From Pseudomonadota bacterium (lineage in GTDB: Bacteria; Pseudomonadota; Gammaproteobacteria; Burkholderiales; Rhodocyclaceae), in contig JAFEDK010000040.1 of assembly GCA_018241665.1 (NCBI GenBank), positions 1 through 39,253 on the forward strand: DNA of 39,253 nt. The letters are read 5' to 3'. The notes under the pieces are model-generated. The model saw only the letters and a list, made by a program, of their open reading frames with translations. It had not been told where the DNA came from and ran no database searches. How positions within the stretch are numbered: the first letter of the stretch is position 1; every line of letters starts with the position of its first letter. Positions 2,595 to 16,768 of the stretch are shown in pieces. A program made the position numbers and the translations under genes.

Positions 2595-2927
2595 TTACTG
2601 GGCGAGCACCCAGCGGACCAGGACGCGTGCCTCATCCTCCGTCACCGCCACCCGGGCGCCGGGCGACGGCATCTTCTTGGTGCCCCAATGGAAACCACCT
2701 GTATCCGGCGACCCCTTGACCACGGTCCGGACCAGCAGGTCTTCAGCACTGGCCTTACCCTTGTACTTCCTGGCCACGCTCTTGAATGCAGGCCCGACGA
2801 CCTCCTTGTCCACAGCGTGACAACTCAGGCACTCCTTGGCCTTGGCCAGATCAGCCCCCTCATCGGCCCAAGTTGCACCCGAGGCCATCAACAATCCGGC
2901 CATCACTCCGATCCACAGCGTCTTCAT
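2595..2927 (-). CDS. Small periplasmic class I cytochrome c
   Basis: A 110-residue protein with a Sec signal peptide (about residues 1-21, cleavage after TWA) and one haem c site, CLSCH at 33-37. The likely axial Met is Met86 in KKMPSPG. Length and layout match the cytochrome c551/c552 (c8) group, which carries electrons in the periplasm. The start at 2927 is chosen because AGGAG lies 8 nt upstream; the longer open frame has no such site. It is the last gene of the dioxygenase operon, 130 bp after the ferredoxin reductase. A periplasmic carrier has no obvious role with a cytoplasmic dioxygenase, so it may serve an unseen periplasmic dehydrogenase or simply share the transcript. Confidence 0.9.
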   Translation of the reverse strand: MKTLWIGVMAGLLMASGATWADEGADLAKAKECLSCHAVDKEVVGPAFKSVARKYKGKASAEDLLVRTVVKGSPDTGGFHWGTKKMPSPGARVAVTEDEARVLVRWVLAQ

Positions 2928-3057
2928 CGTCTCGACTCCTCTCTTCTTTTCCGAAATGCGGTATGCCGGGCAAGCCGGCACTCCAACTCCGAAAGCCCGT
3001 GGGCTTCTGGACCCTTCCCGGCCACCGGATCCGGCGGCCGGTCAATCTGTACCGGGG

Positions 3058-4293
3058 TCAATCCCGGTTGGCCGCCTCCCAGGCCTTCAATTCGAAGCCC
3101 GGCACCTGGGCTTCCGCCGGGGTCAGACGCGGCGGGCGGGCCAGGATCTTGCGCGCCGCCATGTGGTCGCCTGGCCGGTTGCAGGACTCCACGGCAACCA
3201 GCTGGTCGTCACGGAAGCACAGCACGGAGAGCTGGCCGCTCTCCGGCGTACCGAGGGCAACAGTGTTGTCGTACCCCATCGACATGCCGGCAATCTGCAG
3301 CTTGAGATTGCCCTGGTCGGTCCAGAACCACGGCAGCGCGGTGTAGGGTGCCGGCTTACCAACCAGCCGGGCGGCGATGGCGCGCCCCTGGTCCACTGCG
3401 TTCTGCACCGACTCCAGGCGTAGCGGCTTCTGGCCGTTCTGGATGCACGGGAAGGACGCCACGTCGCCCAACGACGATATGTGGGCGTCACTGGTCAGTA
3501 GGTTACTGTCCACCTTGATGCCATTGTCAATGTCGAGTCCAGCCTCAAGGGCCAACTGGACATTCGGAATCACCCCAATGCCGTACACCACCAGATCGGC
3601 CGGCAGAGTCTTACCTTCGGCGGTCACCACGCCACTCACTTTCCCCCCCTCGCTCAGGATCTGCCCGATGCCCTGACGGAACTCAAAGTGGACGCCCCAG
3701 GCTTCGTGGGCCGCGCGGAACAGATCCGACATTTCCCGCGATATGGCCCTGGCCATCGGCCGATCGCCCAGTTCAAGTACATGGACAGTCGCGCCATTGG
3801 CAGCTGCAACCGCGGCAAATTCGAGGCCGACAAAGCCTGCGCCGACCACCACCACATGGCGCGCCTCCTTCGCCAGTGGCGCCAGTTCATCGGCGTCAGC
3901 CTTGGTCTTGATGCCGAATACCCCGTGGGCGTCGGCACCGGGCACCGACAGGGGCCGGTTGTGAGCCCCCATCGCCAATACCAGATGGTCGTAGGGCACC
4001 GCACGCCCGGAGGCGAGACGGACCTGGCGGTTGTTGCGGTCCACGGCCACCGCCTGGTCGTGCACCAGTTCTATGTTCTGCTGAGTGTAGAAATCCATCG
4101 GCCGGAACAGCAGCGCCGTGGCGCTGATCTTGCCCAGCAGGTAGGCCTTCGAAAGGGGCGGTCGCTGGTAAGGCAATCCAGGTTCGTCTCCGATCAGGGT
4201 GATGGCGCCCTGATAGCCCTCCTGGCGCAGGGAAGCCGCGACCTGGAAGCCACCCTGCCCCGCTCCGACGATCACAACCGAGTTGAGCGTCAT
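3058..4293 (-). CDS. FAD-dependent NAD(P)H:ferredoxin reductase
   Basis: A 411-residue flavoprotein of the putidaredoxin/rubredoxin reductase type. The FAD-binding GAGQGG is at residues 10-15, the NAD(P)H-binding GAGFVGLE at 151-158, and a C-terminal GDV motif follows SDAHISSL near residue 275. It should pass electrons from NAD(P)H to a small ferredoxin. The partner is most likely the [2Fe-2S] ferredoxin encoded 37 nt upstream in the same operon, and the final acceptors are the dioxygenase of this operon and/or the P450 at 36.5-37.8 kb. Start supported by GGAG about 10 nt upstream. It is the only ferredoxin reductase gene in the window, so it may also have to serve the 3Fe-4S-type ferredoxin. 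Confidence 0.92.
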   Translation of the reverse strand: MTLNSVVIVGAGQGGFQVAASLRQEGYQGAITLIGDEPGLPYQRPPLSKAYLLGKISATALLFRPMDFYTQQNIELVHDQAVAVDRNNRQVRLASGRAVPYDHLVLAMGAHNRPLSVPGADAHGVFGIKTKADADELAPLAKEARHVVVVGAGFVGLEFAAVAAANGATVHVLELGDRPMARAISREMSDLFRAAHEAWGVHFEFRQGIGQILSEGGKVSGVVTAEGKTLPADLVVYGIGVIPNVQLALEAGLDIDNGIKVDSNLLTSDAHISSLGDVASFPCIQNGQKPLRLESVQNAVDQGRAIAARLVGKPAPYTALPWFWTDQGNLKLQIAGMSMGYDNTVALGTPESGQLSVLCFRDDQLVAVESCNRPGDHMAARKILARPPRLTPAEAQVPGFELKAWEAANRD

Positions 4294-4330
4294 GCTGTTT
4301 GTCTCCGTTCTTTCTTGTAGTAGGGTCTGA

Positions 4331-4651
4331 TCAGTACTGGGAGGCCGGCAAATGGACCATCAGGCCGTCCATACCCTCCTCGATCACCAACTGACAGCTC
4401 AAGCGGCTGTTGGCACGACGCTCCGAAACGTTGTCGAGCATTTCATCCTCGGTCCCGGCTACCGGTGGAAAGCGGTCCACCCAGGCTTCATCCACATAGG
4501 CGTGACAGGTGGCGCAACTGCAGGCGCCGCCGCAGTCACCCTGAATCCCGGGAAGCATCGCGAAGGTCGCGGCCTGCATGACGGACTGCCCCACTTCGCC
4601 GTGGACCTGGTGGAGGGTACCGTTGTGTTCGATAAAAGTAAGGGTAGGCAT
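4331..4651 (-). CDS. [2Fe-2S] ferredoxin, adrenodoxin/putidaredoxin type
   Basis: A 106-residue ferredoxin. Cluster ligands are Cys40, Cys46, Cys49 (C-x5-C-x2-C) and Cys86, the pattern of putidaredoxin and adrenodoxin; an extra Cys44 lies inside the loop. The start at 4651 gives the normal family length; the same frame stays open further upstream but that part overlaps the MFS gene and has no ferredoxin character. Proteins of this type usually feed bacterial P450s. Dioxygenases more often use Rieske-type or other ferredoxins, so its partner here is open: the dioxygenase of the same operon or the P450 far to the right. It lies between the MFS permease and the reductase. Confidence 0.95.
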   Translation of the reverse strand: MPTLTFIEHNGTLHQVHGEVGQSVMQAATFAMLPGIQGDCGGACSCATCHAYVDEAWVDRFPPVAGTEDEMLDNVSERRANSRLSCQLVIEEGMDGLMVHLPASQY

Positions 4652-4677
4652 GGTTTCGACTCCAGATAAGGAAGGGC

Positions 4678-5958
4678 TCAGGTTCGGCCAGCAAGGGCTA
4701 CAACCCCGCTGAATCCCGGGTGACGTCCCAGGGTCAACAGAAGCGCCGGACCGACGAGGGAACATACGAGGCAGTAGACCAACATCGCGGCGTAGGACCC
4801 GGTATGGCTGAACAGCGCAGCAAACAGCAGGGGCGCCAGAGCGGAGGCGACCGTGTTGAGGCCCTGATGAACACCGAACAGGCGGCCGTATTCCCGTAAG
4901 CCGAAATAGCGGGCAATCAGGAAGGCCGCAATGTCGAACTCGGCGCCGGCGCCAAAGCCGACCAGTACCGCGGCAAGGCCGAGCAGCGCCAGATCGTTGT
5001 TGCCGCTCATGTAGATCAGACACCCCAGGGCAGGCAGGAACAGGCTGACCGCCGCGACGCCGGGCGGCCACAAGCGGTCCAGCAAATAGCCCACCACCAC
5101 CCGCCCAAAGACCAGGGAAACCCCAAAACCACTAAAGATAAGGCTCGCATCGCCCCCCGACAGACCACGATCGCGAAGCATCGGTATGGTGTTGGTAACC
5201 ATTCCAACGATGGCTGAGATCACCAACGCCAGTGCTGCATTGCAGATCCAGAAGCGCCGGGATACCAGACCTTCCCTCAGGGACATGCCCTCAAGCCACA
5301 CATGGGGCGCGGGCTTGCCGTCATCAGCAGCGCGAGCCGGGGCATCCTCGATGGGCAGGCGGAACCAGATCAGCACCAGCGGAAGCAACAGGCCAATATT
5401 GAGCACCGCCAGGATCACGAAGGCTGCCCGCCAGTCCCACCGTTCGATCCCCCAGGCCAGAAGGCGCGGCACTACGGCCGCGGTGATGCCTGTCCCGGAC
5501 AGGCCGATCGCCAGTGCCAGGCCTCGATTACGGACGAACCACAGGTTGAGTAGCTGGGTCCAGGTGACCGCCAAAGAGCCCATACCGATGATGGGCAGCA
5601 GAGCAAAGGCAGCATAGAGGGACCACACCGAGCCCCTGATCAGTGTCGTCGCCAGATAACCGAGGGAAATCAGCACCAGCGACGCCACCACCACCCGACG
5701 CATGCCGAAGCGCAAGTTGATCCAGCCGACTGCCTGCAGGGAGAGCACCGCGCCGCCGAACAGGAAGGTAACTGCCACCTGTAGCTCGCTGCGGCTCCAG
5801 CCGAAGGCCTGCTCAAGCGGAATCACCAACGTCCCGAAACCGTATAAAAGTGCGGCATTGATACTGACTGCCACACCGACGATGGACAGGATCAGGACCC
5901 GCCAGCTGTTCTTGAACTCGGTGAAATCGATGCTCGTCAAGCCGATAGGACTACCCAT
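4678..5958 (-). CDS. MFS transporter (monocarboxylate/organic-acid type)
   Basis: A 426-residue membrane protein with about 12 hydrophobic segments. Its overall pattern (first helix with ALLYGFGTLVIP, then FGWSRSEL before the next helix) is that of MFS carriers for organic anions such as the oxalate/formate and monocarboxylate groups. It probably imports the carboxylated growth substrate of the locus. The start at 5958 is preferred because GGAGG lies about 9 nt upstream; an upstream in-frame ATG at 6009 lacks this. It lies between dioxygenase beta and the ferredoxin, a position that recalls the permease of the diterpenoid dit clusters. Substrate is inferred from context only. Confidence 0.88.
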   Translation of the reverse strand: MGSPIGLTSIDFTEFKNSWRVLILSIVGVAVSINAALLYGFGTLVIPLEQAFGWSRSELQVAVTFLFGGAVLSLQAVGWINLRFGMRRVVVASLVLISLGYLATTLIRGSVWSLYAAFALLPIIGMGSLAVTWTQLLNLWFVRNRGLALAIGLSGTGITAAVVPRLLAWGIERWDWRAAFVILAVLNIGLLLPLVLIWFRLPIEDAPARAADDGKPAPHVWLEGMSLREGLVSRRFWICNAALALVISAIVGMVTNTIPMLRDRGLSGGDASLIFSGFGVSLVFGRVVVGYLLDRLWPPGVAAVSLFLPALGCLIYMSGNNDLALLGLAAVLVGFGAGAEFDIAAFLIARYFGLREYGRLFGVHQGLNTVASALAPLLFAALFSHTGSYAAMLVYCLVCSLVGPALLLTLGRHPGFSGVVALAGRT

Positions 5959-6060
5959 GGACAAGCCCTCCGTCAAGATCTTTGATTTATGGAAATAGAA
6001 TCTATGCAATTCCCCGCCACGGCCCGTCAGCCTGTGGCGGGGATGCTCCGCGGAATGTGC

Positions 6061-6624
6061 CTAGAGGAAGATCGCCAGGTTGGGAGTGCCAAGGACGGCC
6101 TGGTCAAGAATCACTTCGCGCCGGGCCAGTTTCAACTCACCCGCTACGTAGCGCAGCACGTCGCGGCGCTCGCCGCTGATCAGGTCGAGGTCGGGGCTGT
6201 CGAAACGGCTGCGGGTCAACAACAGGTAGCTCACCACGGCCAGTTCACCCTCGACACCAGTGGTGCTCACCTGAACATTGGTGACCAGCCGGCGGGTCCG
6301 TGACGGGGGATCTTCCGCCCAGGCGCTCTTGGTGCCGGTCAGTCGCATGACCCGCCCCATGATCGAACGGTAGTCGTCGTGGTAGTGCTGCACCGTGCGG
6401 ATGATCGATGCGGCCTGTTGTGCCATCGGCCGGGTCTGGCGCAAAGGCACGCTGTAAACCAGGTCGGTGGCCAGCAATGCGCTCCACTCCTTGAGGCTGA
6501 TGGCGTCAAGGAGACTGGCCTCCCGGTACAGGAAGCCGAGAACCTGGTTGTAGGTATCGGAGCCGATGGCGACGACTTCGCCTTGCTGGACGTCGGCGCT
6601 GGAGAGGTGTTGGGTAGCAGTCAT
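6061..6624 (-). CDS. Ring-hydroxylating dioxygenase, beta subunit
   Basis: A 187-residue protein of the small subunit family of aromatic-ring-hydroxylating dioxygenases (SnoaL-like cone fold), with typical features: an N-terminal helix region YREASLLD, a central DDYRSIMGRV, and a C-terminal LISGERRDVLR block followed by KLARREVILDQ. The family has no catalytic residues and forms the structural core of the alpha3beta3 oxygenase. It starts 36 nt after the alpha subunit stop and has AGGAG 7 nt before the ATG. The two subunits are cotranscribed and should assemble together in the cytoplasm. Confidence 0.93.
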   Translation of the reverse strand: MTATQHLSSADVQQGEVVAIGSDTYNQVLGFLYREASLLDAISLKEWSALLATDLVYSVPLRQTRPMAQQAASIIRTVQHYHDDYRSIMGRVMRLTGTKSAWAEDPPSRTRRLVTNVQVSTTGVEGELAVVSYLLLTRSRFDSPDLDLISGERRDVLRYVAGELKLARREVILDQAVLGTPNLAIFL

Positions 6625-6660
6625 GAATTCACTCCTAATGGATGGACAGGGGGCTGTGGG

Positions 6661-8052
6661 TCACACGTTGGCGAGCATCAGCTCGTGCCAGTGCAACCAC
6701 CAATGCCACTGGGTGTCATCCTTGGTGAAGCCTTCATTGACAATGCCGGGCCCGGGCCAACCTGCCGGCTTGCTGGTCTCGTAGATAGCCTGGTACTTGA
6801 GGGTCGATTTGCGGCCACGGGCACCTCTGGCGGCAACCGTCATGTGCGGCCAGGTGTCGGAGTCGTCCTGCTCGACCATGCCTGAGGTGCCGAAGAGCTG
6901 GATGCTCTGGCGCAGCATCTTTTCCTTCAGTTCGGGAGGGGTGTCCTTTTCGGCGAGGATCCAGTTCACGAACTCCAGCTGATCCGGGCCCTTGGGCACG
7001 TAGGCATGCAGCAAGGTCAGTCCGAGCACGCTGCCGTCGGCCTGCGGGATATACACGAAAGCAAACAGCACGTTGGGGAAGATTCCCCCGACCTGGGGCG
7101 GCATGGAAACCAGTACCTTGAGCTGGTCTTCACTCAGGTTGCGCTTCAGTTGAGGCAGCATCTCGCGCGTCACACCCGGCGGCGGCAGGGCTTCCAGCTT
7201 CTGATCGACACTCAGTTCATCCGGATCGAGGCCGGTAAGCTTACGGATCTTGCGACCCAGGTCGATGCAGCGCAGCGCGTGGCCGTGGGGCGAGCTGACC
7301 TCGACGCCATACATTTCGGGGCTGAGGTCGGCTCCGCCCTCCTCGCCACTCTTGGCATAGTTGCCCACTTCGCCCAACCAGCGGTGCAGGGTCAGGGTGT
7401 GAAAGCCGTCAGCAGCAGATTGCTCCCCGGCGGTCTTCCAGTTGGCACGGACGATAAACCGCTGGGGCGGGCCGAGCACCTCCAGGCCCTTGTCGGAACG
7501 CTGAAAGAGAATGTCAAAATACCACTTGGCATCGCCGAGGAACTCCTCGAAGGACGGGCCTTCGTGATCCCAGGTGGCGAAGATAATGCCGCCGTAGAGC
7601 GTGACCCGGGCCTGCTCCAGGCCTAGCTCCGTCTTGCTCATCATCTTGCCGTGCATGCACTCCTTCTCCACCGGGGAGGCGAGGAAGTCGCCGTTCGGGC
7701 GGAAGGCCCAACCGTGATAGATGCACTTGTGGATCGGCGTATTGCCCGCATCCAGGGTCGAGACCTTCATGCCCCGGTGCGGACACACGTTGAGGGATAC
7801 ATGAATCTGGCCGTTCTTGCCACGGGCCACGATCACCGAGTCGGAACCCATGTCGCGCACGACAAAGTCGTTCTCGTCGGGGATTTCGCTCTCGTGACCG
7901 AGGAGCAGCCAGCTGTGCCCGAAGACACGATCCATCTCCAGGTTGTAGATCTCGTGGTCCGACAGGGCCCGCATCTGGATTTCGCGGGTATCGACCTTGA
8001 CCAGGTCTTCGATGCTTGTGCCGTCGGCCAGCACGTTTCTTGTCTGCTTCAA
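6661..8052 (-). CDS. Ring-hydroxylating dioxygenase, alpha subunit
   Basis: A 463-residue catalytic subunit. The Rieske site is Cys90-x-His92 ... Cys110-x2-His113 with the usual 17-residue gap. The mononuclear iron site is Asp215, His218, His223, with a later Asp (396 or 397) in EQDD. It should add O2 across an aromatic double bond to give a cis-dihydrodiol. The start is most likely TTG at 8052, with AAAGGAG 6 nt upstream; the longer open frame would run into the FAH gene. Family placement is secure. Likeness to the DitA1-type enzymes is suggested by the neighbourhood rather than measured, so a polycyclic, terpenoid or biphenyl-like substrate all remain possible. Electron supply must come from one of the two ferredoxins in the window. 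Confidence 0.95.
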   Translation of the reverse strand: MKQTRNVLADGTSIEDLVKVDTREIQMRALSDHEIYNLEMDRVFGHSWLLLGHESEIPDENDFVVRDMGSDSVIVARGKNGQIHVSLNVCPHRGMKVSTLDAGNTPIHKCIYHGWAFRPNGDFLASPVEKECMHGKMMSKTELGLEQARVTLYGGIIFATWDHEGPSFEEFLGDAKWYFDILFQRSDKGLEVLGPPQRFIVRANWKTAGEQSAADGFHTLTLHRWLGEVGNYAKSGEEGGADLSPEMYGVEVSSPHGHALRCIDLGRKIRKLTGLDPDELSVDQKLEALPPPGVTREMLPQLKRNLSEDQLKVLVSMPPQVGGIFPNVLFAFVYIPQADGSVLGLTLLHAYVPKGPDQLEFVNWILAEKDTPPELKEKMLRQSIQLFGTSGMVEQDDSDTWPHMTVAARGARGRKSTLKYQAIYETSKPAGWPGPGIVNEGFTKDDTQWHWWLHWHELMLANV

Positions 8053-8065
8053 AATTCTCTCCTTT
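8050..8065 (-). promoter_or_regulatory. Shine-Dalgarno with TTG start of dioxygenase alpha
   Basis: Read on the minus strand, AAAGGAG (8065-8059) is followed by a 6-nt spacer and TTG at 8052-8050. No ATG or GTG with a comparable site lies nearby. This decides the start of the alpha subunit and suggests moderated translation. Confidence 0.7.
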
Positions 8066-8158
8066 GGGTTTGGATTCGCTCGGGGTGCGAAGGGGCTAAC
8101 GAATGTGGCTTGTTTTTTTGTCGGACTACAGCGGCCACCCTGGTCGGGAAGTTGGCGC

Positions 8159-9151
8159 TCACACGCCGGACTTGCGTACGCGGGTGCGCAAGATGCCGAT
8201 GCCATCGACCTCCAGTTCGACCACGTCGTCAGGCTTGAGGAAGCGCAACTGCTCCAGCCCGCAGCCGTTGCCGACGGTGCCGGAACCCAGGACCTCGCCC
8301 GGATACAGGGTTTCAGAGCGGGAAATATGGGCAATCACGTCCTCGAACTGCCAGCGCATCTCGCGGGTATTACCCCGGCCCCACTCCTCGCCATTGACGC
8401 GGGCGATCATGTTCAGGTCGTAGGGGTCGCCGAGTTCATCAGCAGTGACCAGGCACGGGCCCATCACGTTGCCTGTGTCGAAGTCCTTGCTCTTGGCCGG
8501 GCCAAGCATCCCAACCATCTCGATGGCCTGGGCGTCGCGGGCACTCATGTCGTTGAAAATGGTGAAGCCGACGATGTGCTCACGCGCCTTGTCGCGGGGA
8601 ATATCCTTCCCCTTCCTGCCGATGTAGCAGGCCAGTTCCAGCTCAAAATCCATGACCTTGCTGTAGGTTGGCCAGATCACGTCGTCGTCAGCACCGATCA
8701 CCGCAAAGCGGTTGCCCTTGTAGTAGATAGGTTGGCGGTTGAAGGTGCCGATAACCCGGTCGTCGGCGCGTGTGTTCATGGCCTTCAGCGCAGCTTCCGG
8801 GTCGGGCTCGCGGGCCACTCGCATTCGGCGAGCCGCAGCAAAACTCTGGCGCAGATGCAACTCGAAACAGGAACAGTCGCGGATTTGCGGCGGCGGCTGG
8901 ATCGGGGCACACAGGTGCACGTCGGCACGGGCAAGTACTGCACTGGCAGGAGCCGCCGCCACCAGGGCCCGAGCTGCATCGAGGGCGCCCTCGCCCGCCT
9001 CCACCAGTGCCAGGACGCTGGCAAACGCAGTCCGGACGCTGCCATTGCGGGCTTCGTTGGCAACCTGAAGGTCGAGTACCAACTGGTCCTTTTCGATCAG
9101 GGCTCCCGCTCGCTGGAAGCCGCGAGCATCAAGATAAGTAACGAGTCTCAT
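8159..9151 (-). CDS. Fumarylacetoacetate hydrolase (FAH) family protein
   Basis: A 330-residue protein. The C-terminal FAH catalytic domain has its metal ligands in DFELE (Asp168, Glu170, Glu172), followed by FTIFNDMSARD and KSKDFDTGNVMGP. The N-terminal ~85 residues form the usual smaller domain. Members hydrolyse C-C bonds of acylpyruvates or act as hydratases or decarboxylases after ring cleavage. Start supported by GGAG 5 nt before the ATG. It lies between an SDR and dioxygenase alpha, 106 nt before the latter. A second, shorter FAH protein follows the extradiol dioxygenase at 15884; the two differ strongly, so they probably act on different intermediates. Confidence 0.92.
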   Translation of the reverse strand: MRLVTYLDARGFQRAGALIEKDQLVLDLQVANEARNGSVRTAFASVLALVEAGEGALDAARALVAAAPASAVLARADVHLCAPIQPPPQIRDCSCFELHLRQSFAAARRMRVAREPDPEAALKAMNTRADDRVIGTFNRQPIYYKGNRFAVIGADDDVIWPTYSKVMDFELELACYIGRKGKDIPRDKAREHIVGFTIFNDMSARDAQAIEMVGMLGPAKSKDFDTGNVMGPCLVTADELGDPYDLNMIARVNGEEWGRGNTREMRWQFEDVIAHISRSETLYPGEVLGSGTVGNGCGLEQLRFLKPDDVVELEVDGIGILRTRVRKSGV

Positions 9152-9202
9152 GGGTGCTCCGTCAGGGGCGTTTTATCGTTCTCGGGAAATGAGCGCCGAT
9201 TT

Positions 9203-9901
9203 TCAGACGCGGCCGCTAACCGGAATTAGCGCGCCGCTGACCGCAGAGGCCTCTTCCGACAGCAGGAACACGATCACAGAAGCAAGCGCATCGGCACTGA
9301 CCCAGCGGGTGGGGTCGGCATCAGGCATATCTGCGCGGTTGGCAGGGGTATCGATGATGCTCGGCAAAACCGCATTGACGGTTACACCCTTGTCCTTAAG
9401 TTCTTCGGCGAGGGCTTCGGTGAGTCGTGCGACCCCGGCCTTCGAGGCGGCATAGGCGCCCATCCCCGCAGCAGCCTTGACAGCGCCGAGAGCGCCCACG
9501 TTCACCAGTCGTCCGGAGCCCCTGGCCAGCAGGTAAGGCAACGCGGCCTGGGAGGCGATCACGGCGGTGCGCAGGTTCATGCCATACATGCGATCCCAGG
9601 ATTCGACGCAGCCGCTCGCCAGCGTTTCCCAAAGGAAGCCGCCCGCCACGTTGACCAGCGCATCGATGCTGCCCAGAGTCTCGGCTATACGGCCAAAGGC
9701 CTTGCTGGCTGACTCGGGACTCCCCAGATCCACTTCGCCAAGCGCCAGTTCAACACACGGTAATGAGCTAGCCGGAACGGGAGCACGATCAATGAGGGCC
9801 ACCCGGGCGCCCTCCTTCACCAGCCTCGTCGCCAGCGCACTCCCGAGGAAGCCGAAGCCTCCGGTAACGACGATCGTACGGCCGGTAAGGGTTTGAGTCA
9901 T
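9203..9901 (-). CDS. SDR family oxidoreductase with altered active site
   Basis: A 232-residue short-chain dehydrogenase-like protein. The cofactor motif TGGFGFLG is at residues 13-20 and NVAG at 84-87. Tyr150 and Lys154 (YAASK) are present, but the position 13 residues before the Tyr, normally the catalytic Ser, is Ala137 in the stretch VGALGA. A similar change is known in dihydropteridine-reductase-like SDRs, so the protein may still be active with a special substrate or act as an isomerase. It is the first gene of the dioxygenase operon, directly after the divergent control region, with AAGGAT 5 nt before the ATG. A role as dihydrodiol dehydrogenase or on a later intermediate is possible. 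Confidence 0.88.
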   Translation of the reverse strand: MTQTLTGRTIVVTGGFGFLGSALATRLVKEGARVALIDRAPVPASSLPCVELALGEVDLGSPESASKAFGRIAETLGSIDALVNVAGGFLWETLASGCVESWDRMYGMNLRTAVIASQAALPYLLARGSGRLVNVGALGAVKAAAGMGAYAASKAGVARLTEALAEELKDKGVTVNAVLPSIIDTPANRADMPDADPTRWVSADALASVIVFLLSEEASAVSGALIPVSGRV

Positions 9902-9975
9902 GGTTGATCCTTGGTATGCGGTTACGGGGAAATCGCTTCTGGAATACCGAAAAATCCGGCTTCAATGGAAAACTT

Positions 9976-10000: not shown

Positions 10001-10059
10001 TATGCTAGTGCTAGAATCTAATTCCGTAGCCAGAAAACAACTTCCGGATTCCAAGAACC

Positions 10060-10458
10060 ATGGCCCGCAAGCTTCCAGCACTGAACCCCGACAACATTGC
10101 GTTCTGGCAGGGTGGAAAGACCGGCTCGCTAAACATCCACCATTGCAGCTGCTGCCGGCGCTACTTCCATCCGCCGGCCCCGATCTGCCCCCACTGTTTG
10201 AGCCAGGATGTGGCACCCCGCCCGGTCAGCGGACGGGGAAGGGTGATCAGCTACACGATCAACCATCAGCGCTGGCAGGCCGCGCTCGAGGTGCCCTATG
10301 TGGTGGCCATCGTGGAACTGGAAGAGCAGATGGGCCTACGCCTCGTGAGCAACATCGTCGGGATGCCGGCTGACGAAGTCCGCATCGACCTGCCAGTGAG
10401 AGTCACCTTCAGCCAGATCGAGGATGTCTGGCTACCATTTTTCGAGAGGGACGCATGA
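10060..10458 (+). CDS. DUF35 zinc-ribbon/OB-fold protein, thiolase partner
   Basis: A 132-residue protein with an N-terminal zinc ribbon (Cys29, Cys32, Cys43, Cys46) and a C-terminal OB fold, the DUF35 layout. Such proteins bind acyl-CoA and pair with thiolase-fold proteins. In cholesterol side-chain degradation the ChsH2 DUF35 domain forms an aldolase with Ltp2. Its stop overlaps the start of the thiolase-like gene by 4 nt (ATGA), which fits a 1:1 complex. It is the first gene of the plus-strand operon behind the divergent control region; no strong ribosome binding site is seen. Confidence 0.93.
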   Translation: MARKLPALNPDNIAFWQGGKTGSLNIHHCSCCRRYFHPPAPICPHCLSQDVAPRPVSGRGRVISYTINHQRWQAALEVPYVVAIVELEEQMGLRLVSNIVGMPADEVRIDLPVRVTFSQIEDVWLPFFERDA

Positions 10459-11648
10459 TGTTCGACCGCCTGTTTGAGAAGGACGTGGCGATCAGTGGCG
10501 TCGGCCAGTCGGAAGTCGGCCGCCCGTCCAGCCTGTCTGCTATGAAGCTGACCCTCGATGCCACCCTGGAAGCCATCGCCGATGCCGGCCTGACCCGTGA
10601 CGACATCGACGGCGTGGCCTGCTGGCCTGGCGATAACAACAATGGTGACGCCTTCTCGCCGGTGGGGCCGAATGCGCTGATCAGTACCCTGGGTCTCAAG
10701 GTCAACTGGTTTGGTGGTGGCTACGAGGGCCCCGGCCCCCTGGCCGGCCTGATCAATGGTGCGATGGCCATCGCTACTGGCCTGTGCAAGCATGTGCTGG
10801 TTTTCCGGACTATCACGGAAGCCAGCCGGCGCCAGACCGACAAGACCGCCAGCGCCCTTTCCAACAAGACCATTGGCCGCGACAGCAGCTTCTTCTGGCA
10901 GTGGTACACGCCATTCAACGTACTGTCGGGCATCAACCTGATGGCCATGTACGCTCAGCGCCACTTCCACGACTACGGCACGCGGCCAGAACAGCTGGCC
11001 CAGATTGCCATGACCTGCCGCGCCAACGCAGCCCTCAACCCAAAGGCGGTTTACCGCACGCCCATGGGGCTCGACGACTACATGGCCTCGCGGATGATCT
11101 CGACGCCTCTGCGCATGCTCGACTGTGATGTGCACTGCGATGCATCGACGGCCATCGTGCTGTCGCGCATCGATGCGGCCCGGGGAGGCCCAAATCCGCC
11201 AATCCGCCTCGAGGCGATTGGCGCAGCCCTTCACCAGCCCTGGTCCTGGGATCAGATCGATCTGACCGCCATGGTCACCGGCGAGGTCGCCCACATGATG
11301 TGGTCGCGCACCGACCTGAAGCCCTCCGATCTGGGCTCCGCGCAGCTCTACGACGGCTTTTCCATTCTGACCATGATCTGGCTCGAAGCCCTTGGCCTCT
11401 GCCCGGTGGGCGAAGGCGGACGCTTCATCGAAGGTGGTGGGAACATCGCCCGCGACGGCCTCATCCCCATCAACACCAACGGTGGCCAGTTGTCCGGTGG
11501 GCGCACCCACGGGCTCGGCTACGTCCACGAAGCCTGCAACCAGTTGTGGGGCCGCGCCGGCGAGCGCCAGCTCAAACCCCACCACGCCTCAGTGGTGGCC
11601 GCTGGCGGCGGCCCCTTGGGGGGGAGCGTGCTGCTGGTCCGGGAGTAA
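10455..11648 (+). CDS. Thiolase-fold protein (SCP-x/Ltp2-like), likely aldolase
   Basis: A 397-residue protein of the SCP-x/Ltp2/DitF-like branch of the thiolase superfamily. It starts with the DVAISGVGQSEVGR block and ends with INTNGGQLSGGRTHG and AGGGPLGGS. At the place where biosynthetic or degradative thiolases carry the nucleophilic Cys, the sequence reads GGGYEGPGPLAG, with no Cys. This fits the retro-aldolases of the Ltp2 type, which use other residues and need a DUF35 partner. That partner overlaps it by 4 nt upstream. A role in cleaving a beta-hydroxyacyl-CoA side chain or ring fragment is inferred. True thiolase activity seems unlikely. Confidence 0.88.
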   Translation: MMFDRLFEKDVAISGVGQSEVGRPSSLSAMKLTLDATLEAIADAGLTRDDIDGVACWPGDNNNGDAFSPVGPNALISTLGLKVNWFGGGYEGPGPLAGLINGAMAIATGLCKHVLVFRTITEASRRQTDKTASALSNKTIGRDSSFFWQWYTPFNVLSGINLMAMYAQRHFHDYGTRPEQLAQIAMTCRANAALNPKAVYRTPMGLDDYMASRMISTPLRMLDCDVHCDASTAIVLSRIDAARGGPNPPIRLEAIGAALHQPWSWDQIDLTAMVTGEVAHMMWSRTDLKPSDLGSAQLYDGFSILTMIWLEALGLCPVGEGGRFIEGGGNIARDGLIPINTNGGQLSGGRTHGLGYVHEACNQLWGRAGERQLKPHHASVVAAGGGPLGGSVLLVRE

Positions 11649-11682
11649 GCTCCGCGCCCCTTATGCCTTGAAAGGAAAGCCC

Positions 11683-12543
11683 ATGGAAAAGTTGCTTGTC
11701 CACCTGTTTGCCCTGGTGCTCGGCTGCACCCTCGTCTCCGGCTCTGGCGCGGCTCCGCCGCCAGCAACCCGCAGCGAGATCGATGCGGGACGCGCCCGGG
11801 CCTTGCTGACCCGTGCCGTAGAGCATTACCGAAGCGCCGGCGACACGGCCCTCGCCGAGTTCGGCCGCCAGGGGCGATACATTGACAAGGAACTCTACGT
11901 CTATGTTCTCGACGCCGACGGCACCATGCTCACAAGCGGAGGATCATCGGCATCCCTGATCGGCCGTAATGTGAGCGCCATGCGCGATGCGACCGGAAAA
12001 CCCTTTTTTGCAGAGATCCTGGAAATTGCCAAGACCCGCGGCAGCGGCCAGGTGGAATATCGCTGGCTGAACTGGGTGGACAACTCCCTTCAGCGAAAGC
12101 AGGCTTTTTTCCAGCGGGTAGATGAACGCATTCTGGCTGTCGGTTATTACCTGCCCCGTACCAGCCCTGCTCAGGCCCGAGCCTTCCTGGATCAGGCGGC
12201 GGCAGCCCTGAAGGCAGCGCCGGACGAAGCCATCAAGGAGTTTAACCGCCTCGGCGGACGTTTCGTGCAGGACGATCTCTACGTCTTCGTGATCAACATG
12301 AAGAACGGCCACTTTATCGCCCACGGCGCCCAGCCGCGCCTGATCGGCACCGACGGCCTGGAGCTGAAGGATACCTCCGGCCAGCCCATCATCCGCAACA
12401 TCCTGGCGATGGCTAAAACCCAGAAGCAGGGCGAACTCGACTACCAGTGGCCGAACCCGGTGACCAGACGTACCGAGCAAAAAAGAACCCTTTTCCAGGT
12501 CGTTGGCCCCCACATCGTCGCGGTGGGTTACTACAACCAGTAA
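11683..12543 (+). CDS. Exported double-cache protein
   Basis: A 286-residue protein with a signal peptide (about residues 1-23) and no other membrane segment. The mature part is two copies of one cache-type module. The first has ELYVYVLDADG ... LIGRN ... GQVEYRW ... ILAVGYY (about 55-160) and the second DLYVFVINMKNG ... LIGTD ... GELDYQW ... IVAVGYY (about 200-286). Cache domains bind small ligands as extracytoplasmic sensor parts of chemoreceptors and kinases, but here no output domain is attached. The start at 11683 has AAAGGAAAG upstream. It ends the DUF35-thiolase operon and is followed by a strong terminator. It may be a periplasmic binder that hands substrate to a sensor or transporter; this is inference. 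Confidence 0.85.
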   Translation: MEKLLVHLFALVLGCTLVSGSGAAPPPATRSEIDAGRARALLTRAVEHYRSAGDTALAEFGRQGRYIDKELYVYVLDADGTMLTSGGSSASLIGRNVSAMRDATGKPFFAEILEIAKTRGSGQVEYRWLNWVDNSLQRKQAFFQRVDERILAVGYYLPRTSPAQARAFLDQAAAALKAAPDEAIKEFNRLGGRFVQDDLYVFVINMKNGHFIAHGAQPRLIGTDGLELKDTSGQPIIRNILAMAKTQKQGELDYQWPNPVTRRTEQKRTLFQVVGPHIVAVGYYNQ

Positions 12544-12628
12544 ACCACCCCAACCACCTCCCTCAGCCCGAGCCCGCTTCCAGCAGCACGGGCGGCCAGC
12601 CCCCTCGGTCGCCCATCTCGGGCCCTTC

Positions 12629-12654
12629 AACCCGCTTCGGCGGGTTTCTTTTTT
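12629..12654 (+). terminator. Rho-independent terminator of the DUF35-thiolase-cache operon
   Basis: Stem AACCCGC (12629-12635) / GCGGGTT (12640-12646) with a TTCG tetraloop, followed by T, C and six T. A textbook terminator, 85 nt after the cache gene stop. It separates this operon from the IclR gene. Confidence 0.92.
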
Positions 12655-12697
12655 GACGCGCTCCGTATCCAGTTCGAAGTGAAGAAACTCTTGCTGC

Positions 12698-12713
12698 GAG
12701 AATATAAATTCTC
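12698..12713. promoter_or_regulatory. Palindrome upstream of the IclR gene
   Basis: Arms GAGAAT (12698-12703) and ATTCTC (12708-12713) flank the 4-nt spacer ATAA. It lies about 60 bp before the IclR start, in an AT-rich stretch that also offers a possible -10 element just downstream. IclR proteins often bind short palindromes and repress their own gene, so this is a candidate autoregulatory site. Confidence 0.5.
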
Positions 12714-12774
12714 CATATAGAATGCATGGGCAATTCAGATCGGATCCTCCAACCTGCTCACCCAGTCCATCACC

Positions 12775-13608
12775 ATGAAAACAGATCCAAGCGACAGCAT
12801 CGCCGACAAGCCTGCTCCGGAGGATGACGGTAGCAATCCGGAGAACAACAACCGGGTGGGGAACAGCGTGATGGTCAAGCCCATCATCAACGCCATCCGT
12901 ATACTTCGTCACCTCACCGAAACCGGAACGCCGGAGCGAGCCGCGGATCTTGCCAGGCTCCTGTCCATCAACCCAAGCACCTGTTTCAATATCCTGCGCA
13001 CTCTGGTCGCCGAGGACATCGTGGACTTCGACCGGCGCGCCAAGACATACACGGCCGGACTGGGACTGGCCAAACTGGTGGGCAACATGGTGACCGAAGG
13101 TCAGCGCCTTGAAGCGGCCCGCCCCCTGATGCAAGAGTTCGCCGCCCGCTTCGGTGTGACTGTGACCCTCTGGCGACGCATGGGCACCGACCGCATCGTC
13201 CTCGTCAATTCGGAAACCAGCCCTGCCGACCTGCGCATTGACATGGCCACAGGCCAGCGCCTGCCCATGCTGATGGGGGCCAGCGGACGCCTGTTCGCGT
13301 CTCGGCTCGACCTCGACGACCCCGAACTCCGAGCCGTTTTCGACAAGATCCGCTGGGCCCGCCCCCTCTCCTTCGAGACCTACCTGCAGGAAGTGGAACA
13401 GTGCCGCCAGCAGGGCTGGTCCCTGGACGACGGCTATTTCTCGGCCGGCATCATGGTTATCGCCGCCCCCGTGTGCGACCGTAATGACAATATCGCCTAC
13501 ACCGTATCGGCTGTGATGTTCCGCGGGCAGTACGACGAAGCGGGTATCGAAACCGTCGGCCGGGAGATCAAGGAGTTGGGTCAGAAACTTGCAGCCATGC
13601 TGTTCTGA
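12775..13608 (+). CDS. IclR family transcriptional regulator
   Basis: A 277-residue regulator with an acidic N-terminal extension (about 30 residues), a winged helix (about 36-98, core ERAADLARLLSINPSTCFNILRTL) and the IclR effector-binding domain (about 105-277). IclR proteins often control aromatic and terpenoid catabolism as activators or repressors; the dit diterpenoid clusters also have one. It lies alone between two terminator-bounded catabolic operons. Inverted repeats at 9976-10000, 12698-12713, 13648-13679 and 36477-36497 are candidate targets. No clear ribosome binding site precedes the ATG at 12775, so a shorter start near Met33 cannot be excluded. Confidence 0.93.
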   Translation: MKTDPSDSIADKPAPEDDGSNPENNNRVGNSVMVKPIINAIRILRHLTETGTPERAADLARLLSINPSTCFNILRTLVAEDIVDFDRRAKTYTAGLGLAKLVGNMVTEGQRLEAARPLMQEFAARFGVTVTLWRRMGTDRIVLVNSETSPADLRIDMATGQRLPMLMGASGRLFASRLDLDDPELRAVFDKIRWARPLSFETYLQEVEQCRQQGWSLDDGYFSAGIMVIAAPVCDRNDNIAYTVSAVMFRGQYDEAGIETVGREIKELGQKLAAMLF

Positions 13609-13647
13609 GCCATTCAGGCCAGGATCAAAACATCCTGCAAAATAGTG

Positions 13648-13679
13648 ACACTTTTTTGTTTTCTGTGCATAATAAGTGT
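13648..13679. promoter_or_regulatory. Inverted repeat upstream of ferredoxin operon
   Basis: Half-sites ACACTT (13648-13653) and AAGTGT (13674-13679) face each other across 20 nt in the 110-bp gap after the IclR gene. The first arm continues as ACACTTTTTTG, identical to part of the repeat at 36478. The region 13647-13669 also resembles 9978-10000 (GACA, TTTT and TTCTGT at the same spacing). It is a candidate operator and promoter for the ferredoxin-to-MFS operon. Confidence 0.45.
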
Positions 13680-13718
13680 GGCGGCTTCAAGCTGCATTCG
13701 AATGTGAGGAGACAAAAA

Positions 13719-13955
13719 ATGAACACCCCCGAAACCACTGGCAAGGCTCTCCACCGCGTCTTTGCCGAACGCAGCAAATGTTGCGGCTACGGGCTCTGCG
13801 CCGCGATTTGCCCGGAAGTCTATAAGCTCGACGCCGACGGCCTTGTGTACCTTGAAAGCGAGTTCGTCCCGGCCGGAATGGAAGAGTCTGCGTCTGAGGG
13901 GGCAGTTGCCTGCCCAGCCGAAGCTCTGCGTGTCGAAGCCCCCACAGGTACCTGA
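13719..13955 (+). CDS. 3Fe-4S/4Fe-4S single-cluster ferredoxin
   Basis: A 78-residue ferredoxin. Cluster residues are Cys21, Cys27, Cys31-Pro and the distant Cys65-Pro. The second Cys of the usual C-x2-C-x2-C-x3-CP motif is replaced by Tyr24, which points to a [3Fe-4S] cluster or a [4Fe-4S] cluster with a non-Cys ligand; Cys22 next to Cys21 is an extra. Ferredoxins of this sort serve bacterial P450s and the diterpenoid dioxygenase DitA (DitA3). The start at 13719 has GAGGAG 8 nt upstream. As first gene of the operon with the dihydrodiol-type SDR and the extradiol dioxygenase, it is the best candidate for the electron donor of the dioxygenase encoded 6-8 kb away. Confidence 0.92.
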   Translation: MNTPETTGKALHRVFAERSKCCGYGLCAAICPEVYKLDADGLVYLESEFVPAGMEESASEGAVACPAEALRVEAPTGT

Positions 13956-14085
13956 CTCCCCTCCCATCACCAGTAAGCGTTCCGGCAGACTCGGCCAAGC
14001 GGGCGCGCACGCGCCAGCTCTGTTCGTCGAGGGACCATTGACTGTCCGGACAACCGCACATTGGTATCCATTCAGGGGACTCCCC

Positions 14086-14844
14086 ATGGCACGACTTGCA
14101 GGCAAGCTTGCGCTTATCACCGGCACGGGCGGCGGACAGGGGCGCGAAGCGGCTCTGCGCTTCGCCCGAGAAGGGGCTACCGTCGTCGGTTGCGACGTGG
14201 ACGCCCAAGGTCATCAGGCCACCCGTGAACTGCTCCGAGCCGAAGGCTTCGAGCTCCACGGCCTGGCGCCCGTCGACCTCGGCAATCCGGAACAGGCCCG
14301 TCAGTGGGTGGAAGTCGCCGTCGCCGCCCACGGCCGCATCGACATTCTCTATAACAACGCTTCAGCCGCCCGTTTCGGCTTGGTCGGCGAGTTCTCCATC
14401 GAGGACTGGCACTACACCATCCGCAATGAACTTGACCTGATTTTCTTCACCACCAAGTACGCCTGGCCGCATCTCGCAAAAAGCAGGGGCGTGGTGATCA
14501 ACATCGCGTCGACGGCCGCCTGGGGCGGGTCGCGAGTAGCCGGCATCTCGGCCCATTCGGCGGCCAAGGGCGGCGTGGTTTCCTTCACCCGCCAGCTCGC
14601 CATCGAAGGCGCCCCCCTCGGCATCCGCGCGGTCAGCATTAGCCCAGGCTTTGTGATCACTCCGGGTACCGCAGCTTTCGTCGAAGACCCGAAGATTCGT
14701 GCCGCGCTGCTCGACGGCGTGCCGATGGATCGTCCGGGCCAGCCCGAAGAGGTCGTTGCACTGGCCCTTTTCGTAGCCTCCAGCGAAGCGTCCTTCATGA
14801 CCGGCTCGGATCTGGTCATCGACGGCGGCTTGCTGGCTCATTGA
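14086..14844 (+). CDS. SDR family dehydrogenase with His in place of Tyr
   Basis: A 252-residue short-chain dehydrogenase-like protein. The cofactor motif TGTGGGQG is at residues 12-19, NNAS at 90-93, and the C-terminal IDGG is present. In place of the YxxxK active-site motif it has His157-Ser-Ala-Ala-Lys161, and the nearest Ser (142) is 15 rather than 13 residues before it. I recall this HSAAK variant in other SDRs, so it may mark a subfamily rather than a defect. Context (ferredoxin before, extradiol dioxygenase after) suggests the cis-dihydrodiol dehydrogenase step, equivalent in place to DitB. Start chosen at 14086, which gives normal SDR length. Confidence 0.88.
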   Translation: MARLAGKLALITGTGGGQGREAALRFAREGATVVGCDVDAQGHQATRELLRAEGFELHGLAPVDLGNPEQARQWVEVAVAAHGRIDILYNNASAARFGLVGEFSIEDWHYTIRNELDLIFFTTKYAWPHLAKSRGVVINIASTAAWGGSRVAGISAHSAAKGGVVSFTRQLAIEGAPLGIRAVSISPGFVITPGTAAFVEDPKIRAALLDGVPMDRPGQPEEVVALALFVASSEASFMTGSDLVIDGGLLAH

Positions 14845-14857
14845 CGACACACGCAGA

Positions 14858-14877
14858 AGGCCCTCCCAGAGGGGCCT
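14858..14877 (+). terminator. Intercistronic hairpin, attenuator-like
   Basis: Arms AGGCCCTC (14858-14865) and GAGGGGCCT (14869-14877) pair with one bulged G and a CCA loop, followed by CTTAATAAAG. It lies between the SDR and the extradiol dioxygenase genes. Without a real T tract it may only reduce read-through or stabilise mRNA ends. Confidence 0.4.
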
Positions 14878-14936
14878 CTTAATAAAGACGACCCAACGGT
14901 TGATTCCACACCAAACGCACACAAGGGGAAACGCAC

Positions 14937-15887
14937 ATGGACATCATCGGCATCGGCTATCTCGGCTTCGAAACCACCCGGCTAGACGAATGGCGCGAGT
15001 ATGGCTCCCAGGTCATGGGCTTCGGCATCACGCAGTCGCCCACCTCCGACCCCGACTCCCTCTACTTCAAGATGGACGACCGCCGTCACCGGCTTGCCTT
15101 CCACCCGGGCCGGATCGACCGCATCGCCTACATTGGCTGGGAGGCCCGTGGCCGTCTGGCCTTCAACGCAGCCGTGGAGAAATTCCGGAGTGCCGGCGTG
15201 GAGATAATCGTCGGTGACGCCGAGCTCTGTGAAACCCGCGGTGTAAAGGAGCTAATTCGCTTCCGCGACCCGGTGGGCTACCAGCACGAGCTGTTCTATG
15301 CCCAGAAATGGACGCCCCGCTCCTTCACTCCCGGCCGTAACCACGGCGGCTTCGTCTGTGACGAACGGGGTGTCGGACATGTGGTCCTGATCACACCGGA
15401 ATACACCCCCGAGCTGGAGCACTTCCTTATCGAGGTCATGGGCTTTCACTGGTATGGCTCCGGGGCAGGCAAGGGCAAGACCGGTTTTTTCCGCTCGAAG
15501 CTCAACGACTTCACCAGCCACGATATCGCCTACGGCTTTGGCCCGGGCCGCATGGGTGTTCAGCACGTGGGCATCTTCGTGAAAAGCCTCCGCGACGTGG
15601 GCGAGACCCTGGACATCGTCAACGCCCGCAAACTGCAATTGCAAATGACCCTCGGACAGCACACTCAGGACCCCCACGCGTCCTTCTACCACTTCACCCC
15701 GTCGGGCTTCGCCTTCGAGACCATCACCGAACTCGAGCCGTGGCAGGGCGATGCCTTCGAGCTGAATCCGGAAAAACTCAGCACCTGGGGCCACGAGATC
15801 GTCGGCCCCATCCTGGGTCCGAGCGTACGCACGCCAGAGGAACTACTTGAGCCCGAATTCCTGGCGGCGAAGAAGAGCCAGGCATGA
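14937..15887 (+). CDS. Extradiol (meta-cleavage) dioxygenase, VOC family
   Basis: A 316-residue two-domain type I extradiol dioxygenase. The Fe(II) ligands appear as His148, His210 and Glu261. The second-sphere residues His195, His242 and Tyr251 are also present. These positions match the 2,3-dihydroxybiphenyl 1,2-dioxygenase layout almost exactly. It should open a catechol-type ring next to one hydroxyl. It follows the SDR that would make the catechol, and its stop overlaps the start of the FAH gene by 4 nt (ATGA), tying cleavage to the next step. Place and family match DitC of diterpenoid degradation, but biphenyl- or PAH-type substrates fit equally. Confidence 0.95.
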   Translation: MDIIGIGYLGFETTRLDEWREYGSQVMGFGITQSPTSDPDSLYFKMDDRRHRLAFHPGRIDRIAYIGWEARGRLAFNAAVEKFRSAGVEIIVGDAELCETRGVKELIRFRDPVGYQHELFYAQKWTPRSFTPGRNHGGFVCDERGVGHVVLITPEYTPELEHFLIEVMGFHWYGSGAGKGKTGFFRSKLNDFTSHDIAYGFGPGRMGVQHVGIFVKSLRDVGETLDIVNARKLQLQMTLGQHTQDPHASFYHFTPSGFAFETITELEPWQGDAFELNPEKLSTWGHEIVGPILGPSVRTPEELLEPEFLAAKKSQA

Positions 15888-16768
15888 AGATCGCGCGCGT
15901 CGCCGATGCATTCGGCGAACGCTTTTGGGCGCAGGTGGACGAAGATGCCGGGCTCGCCTGGCGGATCGGTTCGGCCTTCCGCAACTGGGCCCCCGCCGCT
16001 GCCGGGGGCGACACAAGCGGCATGGGCCTTGCGGCCTGCCCCCTTGCTCTGACGACCCTTCGTCTTCTCGCTCCGGTCGAGCCCGGCGCCCGTATCTTCG
16101 GCGTCGGCCTCAATTATCTCGAGCACCTGACACGCCTCGGTCGAAAGGAAGCGCCGCCCCACACGATCGCTTACATAAAACCTGAATCAGCTGTGGTTGA
16201 TCCCGGTGGTGAGATTACCTACCCAGCGGTTACCCGCCAACTAGACTTCGAAATAGAGCTGGTGGCAGTGGTCGCCCGCGAGCTCGGCGAAACACCCCGT
16301 GCCAGCGACTGCCTACTGGGTTACACCATCGGCAACGATGTCAGCGCGCGCGATGCGGGCAAGCGTCTCGGCACCCTCGATCTGTTTTCCCAGAAGGCCC
16401 TTGACCGGACCGCACCAATCGGGCCGTGGATCGCCACGCGCGACGCCTACAGCCACGCCGGCCAACCCAACCTGCAGATGCGCCTCTCAATCAACGGCGA
16501 ATTACGTCAGCAGGATTGCACTTCAAACATGATTTTCAGCATCGACGAACTGCTCGACTTTGTCGATGCCCGGGTCACCCTGCACCCTGGTGATCTCCTG
16601 TTTACCGGCTCGACCTGTGGTGTCGGCCTGGAAGATGGGCGCTTCCTCCAGCCAGGAGACCGGATCGAGGCGGAAATCGCAGGTATCGGCGTACTCACCC
16701 ATCGGGTTGGACTGCCCCGCGTACTGCTCCCCGACCGCCGCCGTGGCCGCCTCGGCCTGCCCGACTGA
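15884..16768 (+). CDS. FAH family hydrolase, ring-fission product
   Basis: A 294-residue protein of the fumarylacetoacetate hydrolase family. The metal site is DFEIE (Asp121, Glu123, Glu125), followed by YTIGNDVSARD and a C-terminal FTGSTCGVG block. It starts inside the last codons of the extradiol gene (4-nt overlap), so the two are translationally coupled. It most likely hydrolyses or decarboxylates the ring-fission product. Alpha/beta-hydrolase-fold enzymes, usual after biphenyl-type cleavage, are absent in the window, which makes an FAH-type hydrolase the likely replacement. Confidence 0.92.
   Translation: MKIARVADAFGERFWAQVDEDAGLAWRIGSAFRNWAPAAAGGDTSGMGLAACPLALTTLRLLAPVEPGARIFGVGLNYLEHLTRLGRKEAPPHTIAYIKPESAVVDPGGEITYPAVTRQLDFEIELVAVVARELGETPRASDCLLGYTIGNDVSARDAGKRLGTLDLFSQKALDRTAPIGPWIATRDAYSHAGQPNLQMRLSINGELRQQDCTSNMIFSIDELLDFVDARVTLHPGDLLFTGSTCGVGLEDGRFLQPGDRIEAEIAGIGVLTHRVGLPRVLLPDRRRGRLGLPD

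Follow-up and report, generated by a model that had tools for sequence, protein, structure and literature searches.

The 39,253-base contig analysed here (the window, contig C34) belongs to a 5.4-Mb genome whose nearest named relatives are Zoogloea, and its block of 16 genes at positions 2595–16768 is, with a probability of about 90%, the dit catabolic cluster of this strain, used for growth on abietane resin acids. The assignment is based on homology, gene content, kept catalytic residues, and phylogeny. The pathway appears to be a known one that is rearranged in Zoogloea, and the strain would thus represent a new host example and no new route. Gene models, obtained from an open reading frame listing, Pfam, and NCBIfam with start sites chosen by eye, agree in gene content, strands, and order with an earlier interpretation made from the letters alone (the sequence-only reading), namely minus-strand oxygenase genes and a plus-strand ferredoxin operon, with an IclR gene and a DUF35–thiolase pair between them (Table 1). 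The alpha subunit of the Rieske dioxygenase is 98% identical to that of Zoogloea sp. LCSB751. The block covers only part of the locus; the remainder of the contig carries more of it, as do two further contigs of the same genome (C38 and C50), on which related genes are also found.

The block was compared with the dit islands of two reference genomes, which we infer from their features to be Paraburkholderia xenovorans LB400 (G644, LB400-like) and Pseudomonas fluorescens F113 (G296, F113-like). The LB400 replicons measure 4.90, 3.36, and 1.47 Mbp (PMC3572157), and the 1.47-Mbp megaplasmid bears an 80-kb Dit island in a strain growing on abietic, dehydroabietic, palustric, and 7-oxodehydroabietic acids (PMC6210171). 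In the LB400-like genome, the alpha gene lies on a 1.47-Mb contig, on which 14 of the 16 genes of the block are matched at 51–76% identity, spanning ~78 kb together with other shared genes (two P450s of the family, TetR, a DUF2889 protein, an amidohydrolase, acyl-CoA dehydrogenases, and a 2-oxoacid oxidoreductase-like protein). This region differs from the window in having no match to the cytochrome c or the Cache protein, and in its ditA3-B-C block being ~57 kb apart from ditA1A2. For F113, a dit island contiguous to nos2-nor2 and growth on abietic acid have been reported (PMC3570484); the F113-like genome matches this description, one of its two nosZ genes being ~30 kb away from the alpha gene and the other located elsewhere. 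Its island holds 15 of the 16 genes at 57–79% identity (Cache, 42%), and shares the [2Fe-2S] ferredoxin, the reductase, and the Cache protein with the window, the ferredoxin gene being located apart from the alpha and beta genes.

The likeness to dit proposed in the sequence-only reading is thus borne out by comparison with both islands, whereas the differences from dit that it listed hold only in part. The two FAH-family proteins, the [2Fe-2S] ferredoxin, and the reductase are found in both islands, and the Cache protein (59% identical in Aromatoleum) has its counterpart in the F113-like one; the cytochrome c and the gene order stand as differences. Two FAH-family proteins are in fact to be expected, because the published dit gene list contains ditD and ditH of this type, along with two short-chain dehydrogenases/reductases (SDRs), a sterol-carrier-like protein, IclR, and permeases (PMC12628601). 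The functions of the SDRs DitB and DitG, the FAH-family proteins DitD and DitH, DitF, and DitR match this list, with homologues in both islands. The cytochrome c is matched in 4/4 other Zoogloea loci and in none of the non-Zoogloea loci searched (35% identity, half coverage), nor is there a match in the LB400-like and Aromatoleum stretches; only a distant-lying 36% match, which was not counted, occurs in the F113-like stretch.

In a tree of 48 of the 124 collected alpha-subunit rows, the window protein is placed in a 42-row clade (support, 100/100) together with the LB400-like and F113-like alphas. The bph-like, HcaE, and pNL1 alphas are outside this clade, and ibuprofen IpfA and a protein from contig C15 of the same genome are further out, where the deep placement is unsure because of long outgroup branches. 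Likewise, a tree of 39 of 47 extradiol rows (two with internal stops, L131 and L132, and six repeat fetches or close Aromatoleum relatives being omitted) contains a 35-row clade (100/99) of the window, LB400-like, and F113-like enzymes, with BphC outside. Branching within the two clades is partly unresolved. The sequence-only reading had suggested a possible new aromatic-terpenoid or polycyclic route, and had itself named such a grouping as speaking against one; we have given up this suggestion. The ligand residues of both enzymes were assigned from known motifs. In the alpha rows with at least 50% identity, the Rieske C/H/C/H, D215, H218, H223, D397, and D399 are kept in 117/117 and D396 in 115/117, while H148, H210, and E261 of the extradiol enzyme are kept in 41/41 rows and the five Cys of the DitA3-type ferredoxin in 39/39; the rows counted here and below include repeat fetches of some genes.

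In the proposed pathway, the CYP226-like P450, receiving electrons via the [2Fe-2S] ferredoxin and the reductase, would hydroxylate dehydroabietate at C-7, and an SDR would then produce the 7-oxo acid. DitA1A2 with the separate ferredoxin DitA3 would convert the latter to the 11,12-dihydrodiol, which would be re-aromatised by DitB and undergo extradiol ring opening by DitC. The two FAH-family proteins would act on the ring-cleavage product, and the thiolase-fold/DUF35 pair and acyl-CoA enzymes would degrade the remainder, with the IclR-type DitR as the predicted regulator. Within this scheme, the abietane substrate, the role of each FAH-family protein and of the thiolase-fold pair, the counterpart of ditI, and the reductase for DitA3 are putative. 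In P. abietaniphila, the steps of DitQ (a P450) and DitA have been reported, and growth is lost in ditI, ditH, ditF, and ditC mutants (PMC13063091).

The nearest solved relatives of the [2Fe-2S] ferredoxin, in which five Cys are kept in 16/16 rows, are FdVI, 3hui, 4ltu, and putidaredoxin, and those of the reductase are 3fg2, 3lxd, and putidaredoxin reductase, ahead of TodA/BphA4; the best NCBIfam model for the reductase, HcaD, scores 310 of 450 bits, under the cut-off. We take the FdVI-like proteins and 3fg2/3lxd to be P450 redox partners. Because of these relatives of the FdVI, putidaredoxin, and putidaredoxin reductase types, the ferredoxin and reductase are assigned to the P450 encoded at 36521–37795, which they would serve; their working as a second dioxygenase chain is less likely for the same reason. 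It is possible that the reductase also serves DitA3. A second P450 of the family is encoded on contig C38 (59–62% identical to the P450s of the reference regions), and the LB400-like genome likewise has two. The name CYP226 for the LB400 P450s was taken from titles of cited references, and P450 roles in other strains are described in PMC6891630 and PMC13063091.

The closest solved relatives of the thiolase-fold protein and its DUF35 partner are 6ok1_A and ChsH2-DUF35 (6ok1_B), respectively, and the former protein is nearest to the steroid aldolase Ltp2. The YDGF motif of the DitF-type protein, kept in 33/33 rows with at least 60% identity, retains the catalytic Tyr of YDHF and has Gly at the His position; the corresponding motifs are YDHF in Ltp2, YDCY in Sal, and YDAF in the pIBU218 (ipf) counterpart. 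The Ltp2 and Sal aldolases combine the catalytic Tyr with a second acid residue; in the window protein, by manual count on the alignment, an Arg is located at the place of TcLtp2 Tyr344 (for the residue roles in Ltp2, see PMC12329534).

Since the thiolase-fold/DUF35 pair is shared with the ipf cluster of Rhizorhabdus wittichii pIBU218, in which the dioxygenase likewise adjoins these genes, an ibuprofen-type pathway was considered, in which a dioxygenase and a retro-aldolase remove acyl-CoA from a dihydroxylated ring. The retro-aldol logic is published, and comparison with the pIBU218 counterparts gives identities of 35% across 289 residues for the thiolase-fold protein and 33% across 83 residues for the DUF35 protein. 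This pathway is nevertheless hardly credible, with the alpha and beta subunits only 24% and 28% identical to those of pIBU218, IpfA far outside the alpha clade, and the genes in a different order (24–35% identity over the compared proteins). A biphenyl/polycyclic aromatic hydrocarbon or phenylpropionate pathway would agree with HcaE and BphC being the best named NCBIfam models for the alpha subunit and extradiol enzyme, with the beta subunit passing the cut-off of the broad phenylpropionate dioxygenase subfamily PRK10069 (151 of 145 bits), and with naphthalene and biphenyl dioxygenases being the closest solved alpha chains. Its probability is, however, negligible: the alpha subunit (246.9 of 830 bits) and extradiol enzyme (190.2 of 366.45 bits) are far under the equivalog cut-offs, the beta subunit is under the HcaF equivalog (103.8 of 230 bits), the alpha subunit is only 31–33% identical to bph-like, pNL1, and HcaE alphas, and plasmid dit-like beta genes bear the same phenylpropionate name in public annotation. 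Both these pathways and the ibuprofen-type one were rejected because of identity and tree position.

An improbable but less extreme alternative is that a dit-derived cluster has been re-specialised for another aromatic polycycle, such as a phenolic abietane, an aromatic steroid, or a naphthenic acid, with the same enzyme logic. Identities of 72–76% between the alpha subunit and those of the reference islands fall short of near-identity, the same genome has a second DitA-type dioxygenase, and the carriers of the alpha gene include Halopseudomonas, Marinobacter, and Pseudomaricurvus, which are not known as classical resin-acid isolates. Yet the strain has retained both family P450s, the amidohydrolase (88% identical to its LB400-like counterpart), the acyl-CoA dehydrogenases, and the thiolase-fold protein (75%), a pattern to be expected if the substrate is unchanged.

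Several points weigh against the assignment to growth on abietane resin acids. The substrate in the window strain is predicted from sequence. The identity of the reference genomes with LB400 and F113 rests on features: among the Pseudomonas genomes, nosZ is on a different contig from the alpha gene in five others, having been found in 7 of 19 close-alpha genomes, and lies 1.4 Mb from the alpha gene in G011. The gene letters (e.g., DitH, DitG, DitB, and DitD) come from function lists and order, not from the BKME-9 sequence. The content also varies, the LB400-like stretch having no Cache match, Aromatoleum no orthologue of the second FAH-family protein (39% match only), and neither reference stretch a match to the PF05977 transporter, one of two transporters of the major facilitator superfamily (MFS) in the window, the other of which is matched in both. 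Finally, the record of Zoogloea ramigera DhA-35 as a dehydroabietate degrader is a single line of a review table (PMC6891630). Among the literature matches listed for Zoogloea and resin acids, Zoogloea is named only in that review, in the parts available, which is no proof of absence from print; the first third of a paper on toluene and Zoogloea oleivorans (PMC7012976) does not describe the window cluster. The window holds a well preserved dit-type cluster in a genus where the resin-acid trait is expected from DhA-35, and the genome also encodes an accessory dioxygenase.

Scanning named genome contigs for the alpha subunit by pattern yielded 59 loci; the Zoogloea carriers of the cluster include Z. 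dura G-4-1-14 (L042). A series of 20 genes, starting with TetR and ending with the universal stress protein/hemerythrin gene, is conserved in order in 4/4 other Zoogloea loci, and the core (3Fe-4S ferredoxin, SDR, extradiol enzyme, IclR, thiolase-fold protein, DUF35 protein, SDR, FAH, alpha, and beta) recurs rearranged in Aromatoleum, Thauera, Stutzerimonas, Pseudomonas, Halopseudomonas, and Marinobacter; the arrangement is therefore not due to chance. The closest architecture outside Zoogloea is that of the Aromatoleum/Thauera loci (L006–L010; alpha, 84%), which differ in having no cytochrome c match and only a 39–41% relative of the second FAH-family protein. In Aromatoleum toluclasticum (G003, L010), counterparts of C38, the window, and C50 are found in that order on one contig within ~81 kb, and the three Zoogloea contigs are therefore probably neighbours in a single locus. 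Among the genes searched for, the Paraburkholderia, Polaromonas, and Acidovorax loci (10 kb each side) contain mainly alpha, beta, a DUF2889/SDR/TetR flank, and distant FAH relatives, so that the remaining genes are elsewhere or absent.

In the Pseudomonas loci, A3-B-C-D-(E)-R and G-H-A1-A2 are on the same strand, and F and the DUF35 gene are on the opposite one; P. abietaniphila BKME-9 resembles the F113-like island by its reported gene order. Unlike these loci, Zoogloea has the A3-B-C-D block on the strand opposite to A1A2, and this inversion accounts for the split look of the cluster. The separation of ferredoxin and alpha genes pointed out in the sequence-only reading is real, yet common in the family though not universal: the gap between the ditA3 and alpha genes is 8.8–9.0 kb in six loci of Pseudomonas order (L018, L022, L062, L014, L021, and L037), 7.2 kb in Marinobacter (L059), ~57 kb in the LB400-like genome, and just 0.2 kb in Sphingomonas (L053) and Caulobacter (L064).

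The distribution of the cluster is patchy. Among a sample of 100 genomes of relatives, an alpha match at 1e-60 was found in 5 of 23 genomes of the same genus (own included), each with a second one at 70–72%, and in none of 37 from other genera of the family or 40 from other families of the order, although the named-contig scan found Aromatoleum and Thauera carriers. A close alpha is present in 10 of 144 genomes of the genus of P. fungorum (L013), and in 19 of 398 of that of P. capeferrum (L018), all at 76–78% (one paralogue, 69%), with at most four alpha candidates scored per genome among the rows shown for the latter. Among the best 40 of 873 plasmid tblastn matches, Massilia putida (66%), Caulobacter FWC26 (62%), and Croceicoccus and Novosphingobium resinovorum (55%) were followed by matches of 36% or less; the Massilia putida (L063) and Caulobacter sp. 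FWC26 (L064) plasmids carry DitA-type dioxygenases with P450 and glutathione peroxidase genes nearby. The window has a GC content of 61.4%, somewhat under the 64.9% of a 16-kb stretch of C15. Dit islands are reported to be mobile (PMC6210171, PMC13063091), and the patchy distribution and lower GC content fit such mobility, although they are no proof of it.

Three ring-hydroxylating beta subunits (E ≤0.001) are encoded in the genome, in the window and on C50 and C15. Contig C50 (L065/L066, 22 kb) contains at ~19.7–21.7 kb a second DitA-type pair, whose alpha and beta subunits are 71% and 58% identical to those of the window and whose alpha belongs to a separate 14-row clade (100/100). It is accompanied by a Rieske protein, an oxygenase-like protein, a putative FAD oxidoreductase, and a second amidohydrolase, and the Massilia putida counterparts of C50 genes are annotated as Rieske protein, oxygenase, DUF1302, DUF1329, YCF48-related, and MMPL. 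When 58 loci were sorted by best BLAST score (L053 being weak, the partial L057 omitted, and some loci sharing a contig), the first type was found in 47, the second in 18, and both within the fetched stretch in 7; both are on one contig in A. toluclasticum. With 11 of its 33 first-look candidates scored, the LB400-like genome yielded a single alpha at 1e-60, and no second close alpha was seen in either reference genome among the scored candidates (4, or up to 11, of the first-look candidates in each genome). What is unusual about the strain is the inverted ferredoxin operon, together with this second dioxygenase, a candidate for an undescribed branch. We consider it possible, albeit doubtful, that the C50 enzyme represents an undescribed resin-acid branch with a substrate different from 7-oxodehydroabietate, and that the YDGF protein is a further thiolase-fold aldolase variant. 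Since specific steps in P. abietaniphila have been assigned to DitQ and DitA only (PMC13063091), conserved partners, among them the thiolase-fold/DUF35 pair and the second dioxygenase, would make useful targets.

The cluster is the likely genetic basis of resin-acid use in Zoogloea, whose members form flocs in activated sludge, and extends the DitA-type clusters to Zoogloea, Aromatoleum, and Thauera besides Burkholderiales and Pseudomonas-like genera. Comparison of the islands tells core from accessory genes and hints at which ferredoxin serves which oxygenase.

Table 1. Features of the window (percentages are identities to counterparts in the LB400-like and F113-like reference islands unless stated otherwise).
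Feature	Position	Strand	Remarks
TetR	178-819	-	53-58% in both islands
SDR (flank)	822-1622	-	73-74% in both islands
DUF2889 protein	1745-2491	+	50-52% in both islands
Small class I cytochrome c	2595-2927	-	PF00034
Ferredoxin reductase, probably P450-partner type	3058-4293	-	61% LB400-like, 76% F113-like
[2Fe-2S] ferredoxin, FdVI/putidaredoxin type	4331-4651	-	likely P450 redox partner; 52% LB400-like
MFS transporter, presumably for uptake	4678-5958	-	PF07690; 71% F113-like, 51-53% LB400-like
Dioxygenase beta subunit (DitA2)	6061-6624	-	PF00866; 64% LB400-like, 63% F113-like
Rieske dioxygenase alpha subunit (DitA1)	6661-8052	-	72% LB400-like, 76% F113-like; clade 100/100; TTG start preceded by AGGAG
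FAH-family protein (DitH by position)	8159-9151	-	PF01557; 76-77% in both islands
SDR (DitG by position)	9203-9901	-	63-66% in both islands
DUF35 OB-fold partner of thiolase-fold protein	10060-10458	+	68-69% in both islands
Thiolase-fold protein (DitF type), aldolase-like	10455-11648	+	YDGF motif; 75-78% in both islands
Cache-domain protein, probably exported	11683-12543	+	PF17200/PF08269
IclR-type regulator (DitR)	12775-13608	+	PF01614; 59-60% in both islands
3Fe-4S/4Fe-4S-type ferredoxin (DitA3)	13719-13955	+	PF13459; 61% LB400-like, 57% F113-like
SDR, dihydrodiol dehydrogenase (DitB by position)	14086-14844	+	66% LB400-like, 79% F113-like
Type I extradiol dioxygenase (DitC)	14937-15887	+	PF22632; 73-74% in both islands; clade 100/99
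Second FAH-family protein (DitD by position)	15884-16768	+	PF01557; 66% LB400-like, 58% F113-like
Universal stress protein fused to hemerythrin-type domain	16809-17825		adjoins extradiol/FAH operon; 57-58% in Aromatoleum/Thauera loci
MFS transporter (DitE by position in Pseudomonas loci)	17800-19404 (start approximate)	+	PF05977
Electron-transfer flavoprotein pair, AMP-ligase, 1190-residue 2-oxoacid:ferredoxin oxidoreductase-like protein	19934-27274		
GTP cyclohydrolase I and chemoreceptor	28317-30685		within cluster
Three acyl-CoA dehydrogenases, enoyl-CoA hydratase, amidohydrolase	30786-36394	-	predicted later steps; 55-88% in both islands
CYP226-like cytochrome P450	36521-37795	-	PF00067; haem motif FGFGPHMC; 76% to P450 of LB400-like region

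The remainder of the contig also encodes a glutathione peroxidase (GPx). The 1190-residue oxidoreductase-like protein has a counterpart of 70% identity in the LB400-like Dit region, and the GTP cyclohydrolase is 83% identical to one at the equivalent place in Aromatoleum. The short acyl-CoA dehydrogenase at 32748–33806 shows 55–56% identity in both reference islands, in contrast to the 76–79% of its neighbour, and is perhaps one half of a heteromeric enzyme.

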